This document shows positions 4,495 to 22,375 of a stretch of 64,000 nucleotides of DNA, piece by piece. Each line of letters begins with the position of its first letter. Positions within the stretch are counted from its first letter, which is position 1. The stretch comes from an uncultured Armatimonadota bacterium (GTDB lineage Bacteria; Armatimonadota; Fimbriimonadia; Fimbriimonadales; Fimbriimonadaceae). Made by a program: the position numbers and the translations under genes. The stretch lies in the NCBI GenBank assembly GCA_903927025.1, contig CAIYLG010000002.1, forward strand, positions 212,157 through 276,156, in the 5' to 3' direction. The notes below the pieces were generated by a model, which searched no databases, was not told the DNA's origin, and saw only the letters and a program-made list of their open reading frames with translations.

Positions 4495-5940
4495 ATGTCC
4501 AAGCCAGCCAAGGTTAAGGGTTCCAAGCGTGCCATGGCTGGGCCTCTTGGATTTGTCCTCGGCCTTGGGCTGTTTTGCGGAATAGGTGGGTTCTTCACCC
4601 TAGCCCACCTGTTCCATGAAGACTCCCAAAAATTGGTCACGGACATGGATCGCGCTCGAGAACAGCACCTTCCACTCTCCAGCGCCGACATCGAACAGCG
4701 CAGGATCCACCCAAAGGAGTCAGAGGATGCTGGGCCGCTTTACCGCCAGGCGATTGCGCAGTACAAGGTTCGATTCAATGATCCGGTACACCCGTCGGCC
4801 CAACGAGCACTTAACCTCGCTGTCACCACACTTCACGAGCAAAACCAGCGCTTTCAGCCCATCTACCAGCTCATTCGAAGGGCCATCACCCTGCCCAGAT
4901 GCGACTTAAAGCTGGACTACTCGAAGGGATACACCTGGTATACCGCCATCTCCACTCCATTCCCGGCAGATGCTGGGATGCGATCGCTGATGGGTGGCGT
5001 GGCGCTGATGGGTTGGGAAGACAGCCGCAACCGCAATACCGAGAAGGTGTTTGAGGAAGCTGAGACTCTGATCGCCATGGCCAAACATGGGCAGGAATAC
5101 GACCTCGTTCACCCTGGGTCATGGCCAATTGATGCCGACAGCCAAGCGTGTCAGCTTCTGCTGAGAGTTCTGCAGCTGCATTGGCGAGAGCCGGACATTG
5201 TCCGCAGAGTTGGAGAGATCGCAAACACGGTCAAGTTCCTGGACCTGTATAAGCTGTTGGAGACCGAATTCGCCCTCGGTCTCGATGCCGTGCACAACAT
5301 TAAGAGCCTTGAAGAGATTGGCCTAGATAAGGGAACACCCAAGGCGTTCAGCAAAACAGTGGATTCCCTCTACCAATCTCCAGCGGTGAGAGAAGCTTTC
5401 GAGGAAAAATTTGTCCACGTCTATATCGAATTCTTCCATCGCCTGCCTGCCAGCCACACTGACTGGGCAAAGATATCACAGACGCTGAGGGCGATTCGGA
5501 AGGAACTCAACTCCGACAACTCCATTGATGCCGGGGTGGCGCGGGCTCTGACGCCGACCTACCTTGGAATGGCGGACACATTTGGGAGTTCTGAAACCAT
5601 CCTCCGCCTGCTTCAAGTTGGAGTGCTCTTGTGCCTGGAGCACAGTCGGCTGGGGCAGTTCCCCCAAGACCTGTCGCCTGAAGCCGTTCAGATGGTGGAT
5701 CCCTTCGGCGGGAAGGCGTTCCACTATAAGCCGCAGAAAGACGGGTTCACCCTTTACAGCATTGGTCCGAACCTGAAGGACGATGGCGGGAGGCGCTGGA
5801 CGCCTCAAAATCCGAAGGCGTCGGACGATATCACTTTTCGGCTTGGATCCGCGCGCATTTCGGGAACAATCCCTCGCGGATCGCTGGGGCCGCCCACGAA
5901 TTTGCGCAGGATCTATAATCGCGGGAACGTGCCGCAATAG
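4495..5940 (+). CDS. Membrane-anchored hypothetical protein
   Basis: 481 aa ORF; N-terminal TM; C-terminal DPFGGKAFHYKPQKDGFTLYSIGPNLKDDGG motif common in large hypothetical proteins of planctomycete-like lineages. Confidence 0.7.
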   Translation: MSKPAKVKGSKRAMAGPLGFVLGLGLFCGIGGFFTLAHLFHEDSQKLVTDMDRAREQHLPLSSADIEQRRIHPKESEDAGPLYRQAIAQYKVRFNDPVHPSAQRALNLAVTTLHEQNQRFQPIYQLIRRAITLPRCDLKLDYSKGYTWYTAISTPFPADAGMRSLMGGVALMGWEDSRNRNTEKVFEEAETLIAMAKHGQEYDLVHPGSWPIDADSQACQLLLRVLQLHWREPDIVRRVGEIANTVKFLDLYKLLETEFALGLDAVHNIKSLEEIGLDKGTPKAFSKTVDSLYQSPAVREAFEEKFVHVYIEFFHRLPASHTDWAKISQTLRAIRKELNSDNSIDAGVARALTPTYLGMADTFGSSETILRLLQVGVLLCLEHSRLGQFPQDLSPEAVQMVDPFGGKAFHYKPQKDGFTLYSIGPNLKDDGGRRWTPQNPKASDDITFRLGSARISGTIPRGSLGPPTNLRRIYNRGNVPQ

Positions 5941-5950
5941 ATCGGACGTA
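5924..5950 (+). promoter_or_regulatory. Candidate ECF sigma promoter (GGAAC-N18-CGTA) upstream of the sigma gene
   Basis: GGAAC at 5924-5928, CGTA at 5947-5950, 31 nt before ATG 5981; same spacing as upstream of htrA. Confidence 0.5.
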
Positions 5951-5980
5951 ATAAGGTCAGTCGTCAAATACAGAAGAGCC

Positions 5981-6577
5981 ATGCTATTTACAGCGGTTAA
6001 GGAAAAGACGGGTGTTGTCGCAGATCGCGGACGCCTATTCGAGAGTCTCATTCAGGACTCCTACAAGCAGGCTTACGGGTTGGCGTATAGGCTGACCGGG
6101 AATGCCGCAGAGGCGGAGGACCTCGTTCAGGAATCCTTCGTGCGGGCCTACCGATTCTTCCATCGCTACGATGAGAACCTGCCCTTCACCAGTTGGCTCT
6201 ATCGAATCATGACCAACGCCCACATCGACATGGTGCGCAGGCGTGGCAGACTGAAGACGACTAGCCTTGAGAACTCTGGAACAGATGGATCCTCAACTTG
6301 GGATCTGCCAGACGCAGATGCGGCGCCAGATCGCATGATGCTCTCCAATGCCCTTGACGAGCCAGTGCAGAAGGCATTAAGCTCAATGACTCCAGAGTTT
6401 CGGATGGCCGTCCTCCTCGCCGACGTGGAAGGCTTGGCCTACGAAGAGGTTGCAGACATCATGAGAACTTCGGTTGGAACGGTTCGGTCCCGCATTCATC
6501 GCGGCCGAAAGCAGATCCGAACCTATCTTCTCAAGAATGCGCCTCAGACTTACAGGAGCTTTTGCGATGAACTGTAA
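5981..6577 (+). CDS. RNA polymerase sigma factor, ECF/sigma-70 family
   Basis: Region 2 (AYRLTGNAAEAEDLVQESFVRAYRFFHRYDENLPFTSWLYRIMTNAHIDMVRRR) and region 4 (LADVEGLAYEEVADIMRTSVGTVRSRIHRGRKQIR). ATG at 5981; the listed ORF start 5783 lies inside the upstream gene. Confidence 0.93.
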   Translation: MLFTAVKEKTGVVADRGRLFESLIQDSYKQAYGLAYRLTGNAAEAEDLVQESFVRAYRFFHRYDENLPFTSWLYRIMTNAHIDMVRRRGRLKTTSLENSGTDGSSTWDLPDADAAPDRMMLSNALDEPVQKALSSMTPEFRMAVLLADVEGLAYEEVADIMRTSVGTVRSRIHRGRKQIRTYLLKNAPQTYRSFCDEL

Positions 6578-7013
6578 ATCCGTGCAGAACCGCCTTTCGG
6601 CGTACCTTGACCGCGAACTTGGCGGGGACGAGCTTTTGCAGATGCGAGCCCATCTATCGATGTGCCGCGACTGCCGAACCGAGGCTGAGGGTCTCCGCTC
6701 CCTTCGAGCACTTTTGGGTGGAATGGCAGCTCCCGAGCCACCAGCCGACTTTGCGGCCAAACTCACCGCCAACGTGCTTAGGCAGAAAGTTGAAGAGCCA
6801 CGACGTGCGTTTCGCGCTTCAGCGCTAATGTTCGCTGGCGTCACCGCCTGCTCCATGGCAATTACCTTTGCGGTTTACGGCATGAGTCATCACACCGATA
6901 CTAACGGGCCCAATTCTCGAGTCCTGGAAGGGAACATGGGAATCCTCACGATCGATGACCGATTCAGCAACACTGCGCCAGTCATCTCAGCCGCCAATTT
7001 TGGGCCGCGCTGA
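6567..7013 (+). CDS. Anti-sigma factor with zinc-finger (zf-HC2) domain
   Basis: MNCKSVQNRLSAYLDRELGGDELLQMRAHLSMCRDC (HxxxCxxC), then one TM; start overlaps the sigma stop by 11 nt. Confidence 0.88.
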   Translation: MNCKSVQNRLSAYLDRELGGDELLQMRAHLSMCRDCRTEAEGLRSLRALLGGMAAPEPPADFAAKLTANVLRQKVEEPRRAFRASALMFAGVTACSMAITFAVYGMSHHTDTNGPNSRVLEGNMGILTIDDRFSNTAPVISAANFGPR

Positions 7014-18556: not shown

Positions 18557-18594
18557 AAAAGTGGCTCCGAGCAAAAGCTCGGAGCCACTTTTTT
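18557..18594. terminator. Bidirectional intrinsic terminator
   Basis: AAAA-GTGGCTCCGAGC-AAAA-GCTCGGAGCCAC-TTTTTT, 12-bp perfect stem, between convergent genes. Confidence 0.92.
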
Positions 18595-19354
18595 ATATTG
18601 GGTTTAGGACCGCTCTAACGGCGGCCTTGAGCTGTTCCGGTGGTATCTCTCGATTGCCTTCGCGGTCCAAAACTCGAATGATTGGCAAAATCTTATTGAA
18701 TCCGCCTGTAGCCGAGTCCAGGTCCGCCGCGATGTCCAGCATCTGAAGCCCATCCGCAAGCACTTCCTCAAGAGGTCTCGTCTCAAATCCGCCCTTTATC
18801 CGGGTGATGTACTCAAACACTCCACGAATCCGCTCCGACCCTGAGCCGGCACAAGCATAGGAGCCATTCTGGAATCGCGCTCCTGCCCCATCAAAGAAGT
18901 AGACACCGAACTCATCCTTCTTCCGGTCGTAGGCGGCAATAATAGGCAGGAAGAGGCCAATTCCCTGCATTGCCATAGGCGCGTTGCCCGCAAGAGCCTT
19001 AGATACTTCCGCGAGTTTTCCATCCATCGACATCTCGTGAAGGACCGTGCGTCGATAGTATTTAAATGAATGCTTCAGAAAGCGGCAGACCTCGATCGAG
19101 CGAGCGAATGCTCCCGAAATGGCGACAACCGTTGAATCGTCCAGCGCAAGGATCTTCTCAGCATGATCGTACATGATGAGGTTTCCCGCCGTGGCCCTTC
19201 GATCTGCAAGCGTGAGAACGCCTTGGTCATATCTCAAACAGAGCACAGTGGTGCCGTGAACTTCAAAGTTTGGATCTGCGGAAGCTCCAAACCTGGCCGC
19301 ATCTGCCCCGAACCCGGTTAGTTCCGCAAACTCACGTGGACCCCCAGCGATCAT
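18593..19354 (-). CDS. prcB: 20S proteasome beta subunit
   Basis: HG|TTVLCLRYDQGVLTLADRRATAGNLIMYDHAEKILALDDSTVVAISG; 34-aa propeptide before Thr35; 4-nt overlap with UBact gene. Confidence 0.93.
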   Translation of the reverse strand: MIAGGPREFAELTGFGADAARFGASADPNFEVHGTTVLCLRYDQGVLTLADRRATAGNLIMYDHAEKILALDDSTVVAISGAFARSIEVCRFLKHSFKYYRRTVLHEMSMDGKLAEVSKALAGNAPMAMQGIGLFLPIIAAYDRKKDEFGVYFFDGAGARFQNGSYACAGSGSERIRGVFEYITRIKGGFETRPLEEVLADGLQMLDIAADLDSATGGFNKILPIIRVLDREGNREIPPEQLKAAVRAVLNPI

Positions 19355-19533
19355 TCGCCAGACCGCTGGCGATACTTCTTCGCTTGGTCGGGGTCGATCT
19401 TTTTCATTCGCCTCATCAGTTCGTTGCCCCCTTCCGGCTTTCGAACATCTGGCGCACTCGGTCCGCTGTCGTCGCCCAATTTCTTCTCGGGCTCGCGTGT
19501 CAGCGGCTTTGTTAGCCTTTCGCCATCACTCAT
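19351..19533 (-). CDS. ubact: UBact (Pup-related ubiquitin-like protein modifier)
   Basis: 60 aa, disordered/charged, C-terminus NELMRRMKKIDPDQAKKYRQRSGE ending Gly-Glu; between dop-like and prcB genes with 4-nt overlaps at both ends. Confidence 0.9.
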   Translation of the reverse strand: MSDGERLTKPLTREPEKKLGDDSGPSAPDVRKPEGGNELMRRMKKIDPDQAKKYRQRSGE

Positions 19534-21005
19534 TGAACACCTCTCAACATTTCGATAAAGGTTCCTACGTCTTTCGCCTCAGCTAATTGCATCGGATACT
19601 GCCCGTTTGGCGGAAGATCGAGCTCAACTGGGACTCCATTCACATTAAATGTCAGCGTCCGCCAGCAGACGCCTTTCAACTCGGCACCGAACCGCTTTAC
19701 GGCAATGGATCTTGCGAGCGCCCTCGTGCCCTCATGGACGGATTCGAGGCTGTCTTCCAACAGGTCATCAGTGGGGTTCTCAACGCAGCTTCCCATTTCC
19801 ACGAGGGCCGCATGAAGTCCTTCTTCGGGATCAACATTATGGTATTCGAGATCAAAAGACCGCAGAGATGGATCATTCCACGGGCAGCCTTCCTGCTCCA
19901 CGAATTGACTCAGCATCGCATATTTGGCAGCCCAGTCAACATGGCGACTGAATTCATTGAAGTCCCGGCTCAACTGATCCAAAAGGGCGCGAGAGCTGTC
20001 GATGACCCACTTCATCTCTTCATCGAGATCGAGGAATCGCTCCGCTGATGAGAAATAGGATTCGAGAATCTCACCTGCGGTGGTCCAGCTTCGCTTCTCC
20101 AGTTCAATTGCGAAGCGATGCGTTTCATCTCGACTTATCGCCTGAAATGCCCGTACGGGGTCACGAAACGCCCACAATGGCGCATCTCCCTGCTCGCAGA
20201 GTGCCAGTGCAAGCTTCATAAGGCCAGCCTTACGGGCTGTAGCCTCGGAGATCATGTTTGCGTCGCCACAGATGACGTGCAGACGAATAAATCGATTCGC
20301 GTCAGAGTGGGGCTCATCGCGTGTGTTAAAGATCGGTCTTCGGTAGAGGGTTTCCGCGTTCGCAGGTTCGGAGAGAAAATCTGCTCGCTGGCTCAGTTGG
20401 TATCCGGCGGAGGCTCCCTTTTCCGCCCCAAGCTTTCCTGCGCCTACCAAGACCTGCCGCACGACCATCATCGGGAGCACGTCACGAAACAGCCGTTCAA
20501 ACCCAAGCTGCCTGGGCACGAGATAGCTTTCATGGGTTCCGTAGGACGCCCCGTGAAAGTCTGTGTTGTTCTTGTAGACACGCACCTCGCGTCCAGTTGC
20601 GGAAGCTAGTGCCTTGGCGGCACGCAGAACAACTTTCTCTCCGGCACAGTCGTGCTTTGCCAGTTCAAAAATCGATTCGCACTCCGGAGTGGCATATTCC
20701 GGGTGCCCATGATCATTGTAGAATCGCGCGCCGTTGGGGAGCACGCGATCTGATCGCACATCGTGCGCCTCTCCGTAAGTGCGTCCCTCATCAAACCGAG
20801 CGTCTTCAGGGTCAAAGGCTAAATGGGGGAGTTTGAATCCGCGCAGGTCTGCTCTAGGCGATTCGTACTGGTAATCCCAACCAAAATGGCACTCGCCCGG
20901 GTAACCCCGGACAAGTGCCATTGAATCATCAACCTGATCGTGCGCGTCCCGCCCCTCGACTAGGAGTCCATACTCCGTCTCGATACCGGCGAGAATTCTT
21001 CGCAC
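19530..21005 (-). CDS. Dop-like Pup/UBact carboxylate-amine ligase-fold enzyme
   Basis: MRRILAGIETEYG, HFGWDYQYESPRADLRGF, NGARFYNDHGHPEYATPECES, VYKNNTDFHGASYGTHESYLVPRQ, IFNTRDEPHSDANRFIRLHVICGDANM. The WDYxxESPxxDxRGF segment favours Dop over PafA. GTG start. Confidence 0.9.
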   Translation of the reverse strand: MRRILAGIETEYGLLVEGRDAHDQVDDSMALVRGYPGECHFGWDYQYESPRADLRGFKLPHLAFDPEDARFDEGRTYGEAHDVRSDRVLPNGARFYNDHGHPEYATPECESIFELAKHDCAGEKVVLRAAKALASATGREVRVYKNNTDFHGASYGTHESYLVPRQLGFERLFRDVLPMMVVRQVLVGAGKLGAEKGASAGYQLSQRADFLSEPANAETLYRRPIFNTRDEPHSDANRFIRLHVICGDANMISEATARKAGLMKLALALCEQGDAPLWAFRDPVRAFQAISRDETHRFAIELEKRSWTTAGEILESYFSSAERFLDLDEEMKWVIDSSRALLDQLSRDFNEFSRHVDWAAKYAMLSQFVEQEGCPWNDPSLRSFDLEYHNVDPEEGLHAALVEMGSCVENPTDDLLEDSLESVHEGTRALARSIAVKRFGAELKGVCWRTLTFNVNGVPVELDLPPNGQYPMQLAEAKDVGTFIEMLRGVQ

Positions 21006-22375
21006 TACAGTCGGAAGACGTAGAACGTACCGTTCTTGAAGCCAACCTGAGTTGCCGCCGCGGAAGAGCCATCGCTTGAGTTGAACGCGAAGGCTCCACT
21101 GTGTACGAGGTCTGGCGATGTGGTTGCGTGACCGTATCGGTCATTCAACTGACCCAGGGTTCCGTCGATGCCACCGGCGGTTGAGCCGCTAACGATGTCT
21201 CCGATCGGATACAGGTTGAACGTCAGTGCGTCCAGATCGATAAAGCCAAAGTACAGTGCAGAGATATTTGCGTTCGCATCCTGAGTGAATGCGACCATCT
21301 CCTGCATGTTGTTGTCGTTGCTGCTTGGGAAGGTGATCACATAAGATCCTGCACCCAGTGCCGCACCGTTGCTCTGTCGAAGGACCGTCTTGTGCTCTCG
21401 CCAAATTCCCTGTCCTGCCACGACCTTGAGGGTCTGCGTCAGGTCCGTTGGGTTGAGTTGGAGGAGCGAATACGTTCCCGCATGAGGCAGGCTGCCGGTA
21501 GGTCCGGTTGTGATCGTTCCTGCTGATCCGAGAACTCCACCAATTGGCAGAGTTGGGTCAAGCGTGAGCGCTTCGAAATTGGCACCGCTCGTAAATCCGT
21601 CAGCGATCGCATAAACGTCTCCGCTGAAGAACACGCGGACGGCTGTGGTACCGCCGGCAATTCCGGTCGTAGCCGCAAGCGTCGGCAAGAGAGCTGTGTT
21701 CGTGTAGCCGCTGAGGTTAAAGGCAACGAAGTCGCTGAGGAATCCCTTCATTGGGTTGGCGGACGTAGCGCCGTTGGCAAGAAGGAATTGACTTTCGTTG
21801 TAGTCAACGAGGAGCGGATTGACCGTATCAACCGTAAACATCGAATCATCGATGAAAACGGGGAGGCTGGTCACACGTCCTGGGAAGGTCCGAACTGAAG
21901 CCGGATAGCCTTTTGGAAGTGCGGCTGGCTCTTGGAGCACCGAGAAGTCGCCCATTACAGGACTATCGGTTTCCTCATGGAAGTTGAGGAAGTCCAAGTT
22001 GAAGGTTGAGAACGATCGCGACGGCTGTCCCGAGAATGGTACAGAGACGTAGACGATGTTGTTCTGGAAGCCGGTCAGCGGGCAGCTGATCTGCGGGCCG
22101 AGCGGATTGGTCACTTCGCCATACTGATCGTAGAAGCGAAGCTGCTGTACGGTGGCACTCAGGTCCCCGACGGCACGCCCCTGTCCAGTAAGAAAAGCAA
22201 CTGCAATGCTTCCCGGAGCACTTGTGCTCAGGTTAGACAGCTTAATTGCGACAGTTGCCGTGTTGCCAGTAGTGCCACCTCCGGTCGTGTTGGTCGCGTG
22301 GCTGCCATTGCCACTACCACCACAACCGATTACGGCTAAGGCCGCTGCAGAATACAAAAACGCCCATTTCCTCAA
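21005..22375 (-). CDS. Hypothetical lipoprotein
   Basis: TTG start; signal peptide with lipobox AVIGC then GGSGNGS linker; stop overlaps the dop-like GTG (TAGTG). Confidence 0.75.
   Translation of the reverse strand: MRKWAFLYSAAALAVIGCGGSGNGSHATNTTGGGTTGNTATVAIKLSNLSTSAPGSIAVAFLTGQGRAVGDLSATVQQLRFYDQYGEVTNPLGPQISCPLTGFQNNIVYVSVPFSGQPSRSFSTFNLDFLNFHEETDSPVMGDFSVLQEPAALPKGYPASVRTFPGRVTSLPVFIDDSMFTVDTVNPLLVDYNESQFLLANGATSANPMKGFLSDFVAFNLSGYTNTALLPTLAATTGIAGGTTAVRVFFSGDVYAIADGFTSGANFEALTLDPTLPIGGVLGSAGTITTGPTGSLPHAGTYSLLQLNPTDLTQTLKVVAGQGIWREHKTVLRQSNGAALGAGSYVITFPSSNDNNMQEMVAFTQDANANISALYFGFIDLDALTFNLYPIGDIVSGSTAGGIDGTLGQLNDRYGHATTSPDLVHSGAFAFNSSDGSSAAATQVGFKNGTFYVFRL

Follow-up and report, generated by a model that had tools for sequence, protein, structure and literature searches.

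An operon of four overlapping genes with a single terminator, ordered lipoprotein-dop-ubact-prcB, lies in the window, the whole stretch of 64,000 nucleotides of Fimbriimonadaceae DNA analysed here. It very probably belongs to a UBact-type (Pup-like) protein modification pathway that also comprises a PafA-type enzyme, the predicted ligase, coded on another contig (C53) of the source genome. With its core the operon adds a further member to the known UBact kind. It counts as a variant on account of the lipoprotein, the dispersal of the pathway, the altered motif of the ligase and an ATPase without the GQYL motif. What is unexpected in an already known tag family is the conserved lipoprotein of the operon and the presence of UBact genes on phage contigs.

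In the open literature searched, UBact, a small protein presumed to tag others for destruction, receives little attention other than being cited. Lehmann et al. 2017 (BBRC 483:946) reportedly described a UBact conjugation system in Gram-negative bacteria. The two systems would share the modifier family, the conjugation enzymes and the proteasome subunits, while here prcA, pafA and the ATPase gene stand apart and a family-specific lipoprotein leads the operon. Actinobacterial pupylation (Pup, Dop, PafA, Mpa, 20S) has in common with the present system the enzyme families and their folds, the Dop active site, the proteasome alpha and beta subunits and an ARC/Mpa-like ATPase. It differs in that the modifier here is UBact (RSG-E/Q) without a Pup family match, the ligase has NPKW for NTRD and the ATPase carboxyl terminus is not GQYL.

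The window locus and its ~150 relatives make three open questions testable. The first concerns the assignment of the ligase and depupylase roles to the two homologous enzymes outside actinobacteria, for which residue markers give a clear prediction. The second is the choice between Glu and Gln at the modifier end, where two-way switching predicts near-neutrality as long as Dop is present and a Dop that still works as deamidase. The third is whether the pathway includes components not known from actinobacteria, for which the conserved lipoprotein is the first candidate.

The operon and its modifier

Gene dop (19530..21005, minus strand) has a GTG start and codes for a depupylase/deamidase-type enzyme of 491 aa. 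It is followed on the same strand by ubact (19351..19533), coding for the 60-aa modifier with carboxyl terminus RQRSGE, and by prcB (18593..19354), coding for a proteasome beta subunit of 253 aa. These are the three open reading frames of the operon proposed in an earlier sequence-only reading; all are present at the positions and on the strand given there, and the 4-nt overlaps that it described are read as ATGA at both junctions (dop/ubact, 19530-19533; ubact/prcB, 19351-19354). The strong terminator announced for the end of the operon is found as an intrinsic terminator with a 16-pair hairpin stem (18557..18592), assigned to no strand. It is palindromic and flanked by convergent genes, so that it probably serves both sides. 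The three-gene composition stands as far as dop, ubact and prcB are concerned but overlooked a fourth gene, coding for a lipoprotein (21005..22375, minus strand, TTG start), which is the first gene of the operon in Fimbriimonadaceae. Its stop codon shares one base with the GTG start of dop (CTGTAGTGCG). The operon genes have a GC content of 0.54-0.57, equal to the 0.555 of the window, and thus nothing points to a recent import.

The identification of the 60-aa protein as UBact, together with the HMM search suggested for its verification, is borne out by matches to PF20513 of Pfam (1.3e-21; 76.5 bits for a cut-off of 27.8) and to NF033388 of NCBIfam (4.2e-22; 78.1 bits for a cut-off of 35), both over the curated cut-offs, which excludes a chance match. 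Its carboxyl terminus reads ...RRMKKIDPDQAKKYRQRSGE, and the attributes by which UBact is recognized, an RQRSG[E/Q] end, a length of ~60 aa and adjoining Dop and proteasome genes, are all present here. The profile search of the source genome for Pup (PF05639) gave no match, with C. glutamicum positive as control, in agreement with the earlier statement that the modifier is not actinobacterial Pup. No relatives of UBact were found in the PDB. PrcB matches the Proteasome family PF00227 (1.1e-21) and the bacterial beta subunit model TIGR03690 (3.1e-36, below its curated cut-off). It features a 34-residue propeptide that places Thr1 at residue 35, with Thr1, Asp17 and Lys33 in register, as expected from its original assignment as a proteasome beta subunit.

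Of the 292 genomes of the phylum 171 have UBact and 188 have a member of the Pup_ligase family, and most genomes with UBact contain two PF03136 genes. The Armatimonadota origin put forward for the operon agrees with the genome scan for UBact relatives: among the best 80 of 381 matches, nearly all are titled Armatimonadota and the named relatives are Fimbriimonas and other members of the phylum. Some loci depart from the common layout. In two genomes of genus g54 (G008 and G009) a second, degenerate UBact-like ORF lies in tandem between ubact and prcB (L064 2906-3103, L065 3119-3316); these additional ORFs end in YEQRSGQ or YKQRPGQ and might be a diverged paralogue. A contig titled Methanoregulaceae archaeon (L193, JADZEW010000030.1) carries a lipoprotein-dop-ubact-prcB arrangement of the Fimbriimonad type and is probably a wrongly labelled bin. 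In L193 and L195 about 2 kb (4780 to 6731) separate dop from the frame holding ubact, possibly due to an insertion, most relatives being close-spaced. An apparent Dop-UBact fusion in G128, G148 and G149 was discarded, as the frames of 476-574 aa are stop-free overlaps with dop in another reading frame.

Two homologous enzymes in a dispersed pathway

The window enzyme is a clear member of the Pup_ligase family (PF03136, 3.1e-137). It scores 365.8 bits with the Dop model TIGR03688 (cut-off 492.3) versus 280 with the PafA model TIGR03686, both below the respective cut-offs, which leaves the Dop score 86 bits above the PafA one. TIGR03688 appears tuned to actinobacterial sequences, and the identity claimed on these scores is that of a Dop-type enzyme, not of a TIGR03688 equivalog. 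The closest PDB entries are the Dop structures 4B0R, 5LRT and 9CKU (E ~9e-86 for 4B0R and 5LRT). In the numbering of A. cellulolyticus Dop the window enzyme retains GIETEY, W47, R90, Y92, D94, R205, T217, R221 and NTR227DEPH, and the Dop-loop with Trp47 is found in it as in every Armatimonadota Dop row of the alignment. Trp47 positions the nucleotide, Asp94 is catalytic, Thr217 forms a hydrogen bond with the terminal residue of Pup and the catalytic phosphate is held by Arg227 (PMC8599861, PMC7947786). The description of the neighbour of UBact as Dop-like is therefore correct, and since every depupylase marker checked is present the enzyme is probably mainly a deconjugase, as had been suggested. 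Most likely it is a depupylase that keeps a deamidase capacity.

The second Pup_ligase (PF03136) gene of the source genome is located on contig C53 (L002 1438-2946). The score of its product is also under the curated NCBIfam equivalog cut-off. Like the other Armatimonadota PafA rows, it has no Dop-loop, a VGSH ligase-type insertion after the catalytic Asp94 and the equivalent of R201, a residue that contacts the Pup carboxyl terminus (PMC8599861, PMC7947786). The position of Arg227 is occupied by Lys in all Armatimonadota PafA rows checked, NTRDEPH being replaced by NPK-type motifs, and the residue that pairs with the Dop-loop Trp, His231, is missing. We infer that these two changes would make phosphate retention, and hence hydrolysis, less likely in the Armatimonadota ligase. 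The alpha-loop of the C53 enzyme is only partly PafA-like, in a model with a low-confidence helix. The best fold match of this AlphaFold model (pLDDT 79.6) by E-value is 4BJR, a PafA-Pup complex, closely followed by Dop structures.

The sequence-only reading had also considered that the Dop-like enzyme could act as ligase. That it would be the UBact ligase, or do both jobs with deamidation being unnecessary, is very improbable. Dop and PafA are close homologues, 20 substitutions are sufficient to convert M. smegmatis Dop to a ligase (PMC7947786) and Arg227 is absent from the C53 enzyme, but the full Dop-loop and the alpha-loop Thr217 are present in the window enzyme, the ligase-type features are those of the C53 enzyme and two PF03136 genes co-exist in most UBact-bearing genomes. 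The ligase role was rejected on these residue markers and on the presence of the C53 enzyme. The Dop/PafA phylogeny that had been proposed as a check places the window enzyme among Armatimonadota Dop, in a tree whose deep splits are weak and whose branches are long. It joins actinobacterial Dop and PafA (100/99) and places the Armatimonadota PafA clade beside Armatimonadota Dop. This topology, together with the NPK-type motifs found in that clade in place of NTRDEPH, would fit a ligase that Armatimonadota acquired by duplicating a Dop-like enzyme on their own, apart from the origin of actinobacterial PafA. Such an origin is nevertheless rather unlikely: besides the long branches, a joint clade of Armatimonadota and actinobacterial PafA is absent from the tree yet not rejected (AU p 0.15), and the common VGSH insertion and missing Dop-loop favour a single origin.

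The other components were searched for in the source genome (5.25 Mb, 98.4% complete). A PrcA-like alpha subunit is coded on contig C62 and a pup_AAA-like (ARC/Mpa-like) ATPase at C2:31489-33006; the latter scores 433 bits for a cut-off of 505, a value that no other AAA protein of the genome comes near. It ends in ...ARKSIV and lacks GQYL, the carboxyl-terminal docking motif of Mpa (PMC8755798). The ARC ORF at L079 3439-5202 and those of ~20 other loci of the phylum likewise terminate in a pair of branched aliphatic residues (II, VI, IV or VV), not GQYL. Elsewhere in the phylum, other families have the genes in a single cluster, ARC-dop-ubact-prcB-prcA-pafA, and this links the scattered genes of the source genome to a common pathway. 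In the Fimbriimonadaceae dop, ubact and prcB stay joined, with prcA and pafA not near. The predicted pathway is thus complete but dispersed over C2, C53 and C62.

The gene content, family membership, conserved catalytic residues and conserved gene order observed, together with the E/Q switching described below, outline a route whose activities, reaction directions and flow to the proteasome are all predicted by homology. UBact would be produced with a carboxyl-terminal Glu, making it possible for the PafA-type ligase coded on C53 to attach the Glu side chain directly to lysines. The window Dop would take UBact off the conjugates and probably be still able to deamidate Gln-ended UBact. Tagged proteins would be delivered to the ARC/Mpa-like ATPase and, through a predicted docking, to the 20S proteasome formed by PrcB and PrcA.

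Switching between Glu and Gln at the UBact carboxyl terminus

The last codon of ubact in the window is GAA, coding for Glu, so that the allele indeed ends in Gly-Glu as first described. Among UBact-like ORFs 151 of 153 end in YRQRSG[EQ] (a few loci overlap), and of the 137 loci where Dop adjoins, 80 have a terminal Q and 57 a terminal E. The 44-residue tails of L168 (E) and L171 (Q) are identical save for the last residue. Traced on a tree of the 137 Dop proteins, whose construction from Dop itself and by a fast method renders the counts approximate, the end state underwent at least 32 changes (mean of 44 and lowest value of 35 for shuffled labels). Models without E-to-Q or without Q-to-E changes are 30 and 25 log units worse, respectively.

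It had been proposed that deamidation by Dop is not needed for a modifier already ending in Glu. This holds for the window allele but does not extend beyond it, as E and Q alternate beside Dop with switches in both directions, implying that one and the same Dop lineage has to deal with Q-ended UBact as well. The stronger version, in which deamidation was lost and the window Dop is a specialised deconjugase for a UBact fixed as Gly-Glu, is improbable. The GAA codon agrees with it; the alternation in relatives as close as L168 and L171, the number of changes and the poor fit of both one-way models oppose it. So does the lack of any Dop position tracking E/Q (0 significant in 937 tests, of low power). 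Likeliest is that a single Dop performs both deamidation and deconjugation and that the choice of E or Q is nearly neutral.

Corynebacterium glutamicum is not known to have proteasome core genes, which are present here, and its modifier is of a different family. It nonetheless sets a precedent in combining a Glu-ended modifier, Pup, with a retained dop, explained by the depupylase function of the enzyme (PMC3511204).

The operon lipoprotein and UBact genes on viral contigs

The lipoprotein has a signal with lipobox IGC (AVIGC-GG), a Gly-rich linker and a beta-rich domain. It has no sequence match in Pfam, NCBIfam or the PDB. The model of its structure (pLDDT 87.7, pTM 0.86) gave no significant fold match in the PDB or in a viral structure library; judged against PDB and viral models, a new fold is only a possibility. 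A search with a profile of 33 homologues finds the protein in 78 genomes, all Fimbriimonadaceae, and in none of the other listed genomes of the phylum. It is single copy in the source genome and almost always so elsewhere.

That the lipoprotein merely shares the transcript, with no role in the UBact pathway, is moderately probable. Its signal implies a location outside the cytosol, it is missing from the other families of the phylum and three genomes of genus g31 have UBact and no lipoprotein. Against this stand its position directly upstream of dop in 62 of the 71 genomes of the family with a listed UBact, nearly always as a single copy, and on the same strand in the 42 loci read (42/42). Furthermore, in two reduced g24 genomes (G132, G133; 1.5 Mb, 97% complete) the lipoprotein is absent along with UBact and Dop/PafA. 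Translational coupling of the lipoprotein to dop could serve dosage alone. A tentative and rather unlikely proposal is that the UBact system of Fimbriimonadaceae gained a dedicated exported lipoprotein, of a fold unseen in solved structures and with its translation coupled to that of Dop, which would link cytosolic tagging and the proteasome to the cell envelope. If true, it could connect the pathway to envelope stress, for example, or to an envelope partner whose amount has to follow that of Dop.

UBact genes are also found on two contigs that are clearly viral, with PF20513 scores over the cut-off: L243 4962-5141 (IMGVR_UViG_3300018079_000002, 69,987 bp; 1e-18) and L244 2768-3079 (IMGVR_UViG_3300029999_000080; 1.3e-15). 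In both, ubact is flanked by the portal gene on one side and a Mu F-like head gene on the other, the portal families being different (phrog_145 and Portal_Mu, respectively), and no Dop/PafA gene was found on either contig. No report of phage UBact was found in the open literature searched. INPHARED phages yielded no UBact, and a second viral scan with phage UBact or a DNA pattern scan yielded no further viral contigs. Phage-borne UBact suggests that viruses may interfere with the tag or use it: the viral protein is possibly a decoy, or a tag for virion proteins. Two other IMG/VR contigs, L245 (3300037840_000275) and L246 (3300037452_000155), are 99.97% identical in their overlap and have no clear PHROG support, their viral origin being unsure. 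They carry a UBact-like ORF (L245 4965-5129; PF20513, 1.8e-12) just upstream of the gene of a 1120-aa protein with lectin-like and Fn3-associated domains.
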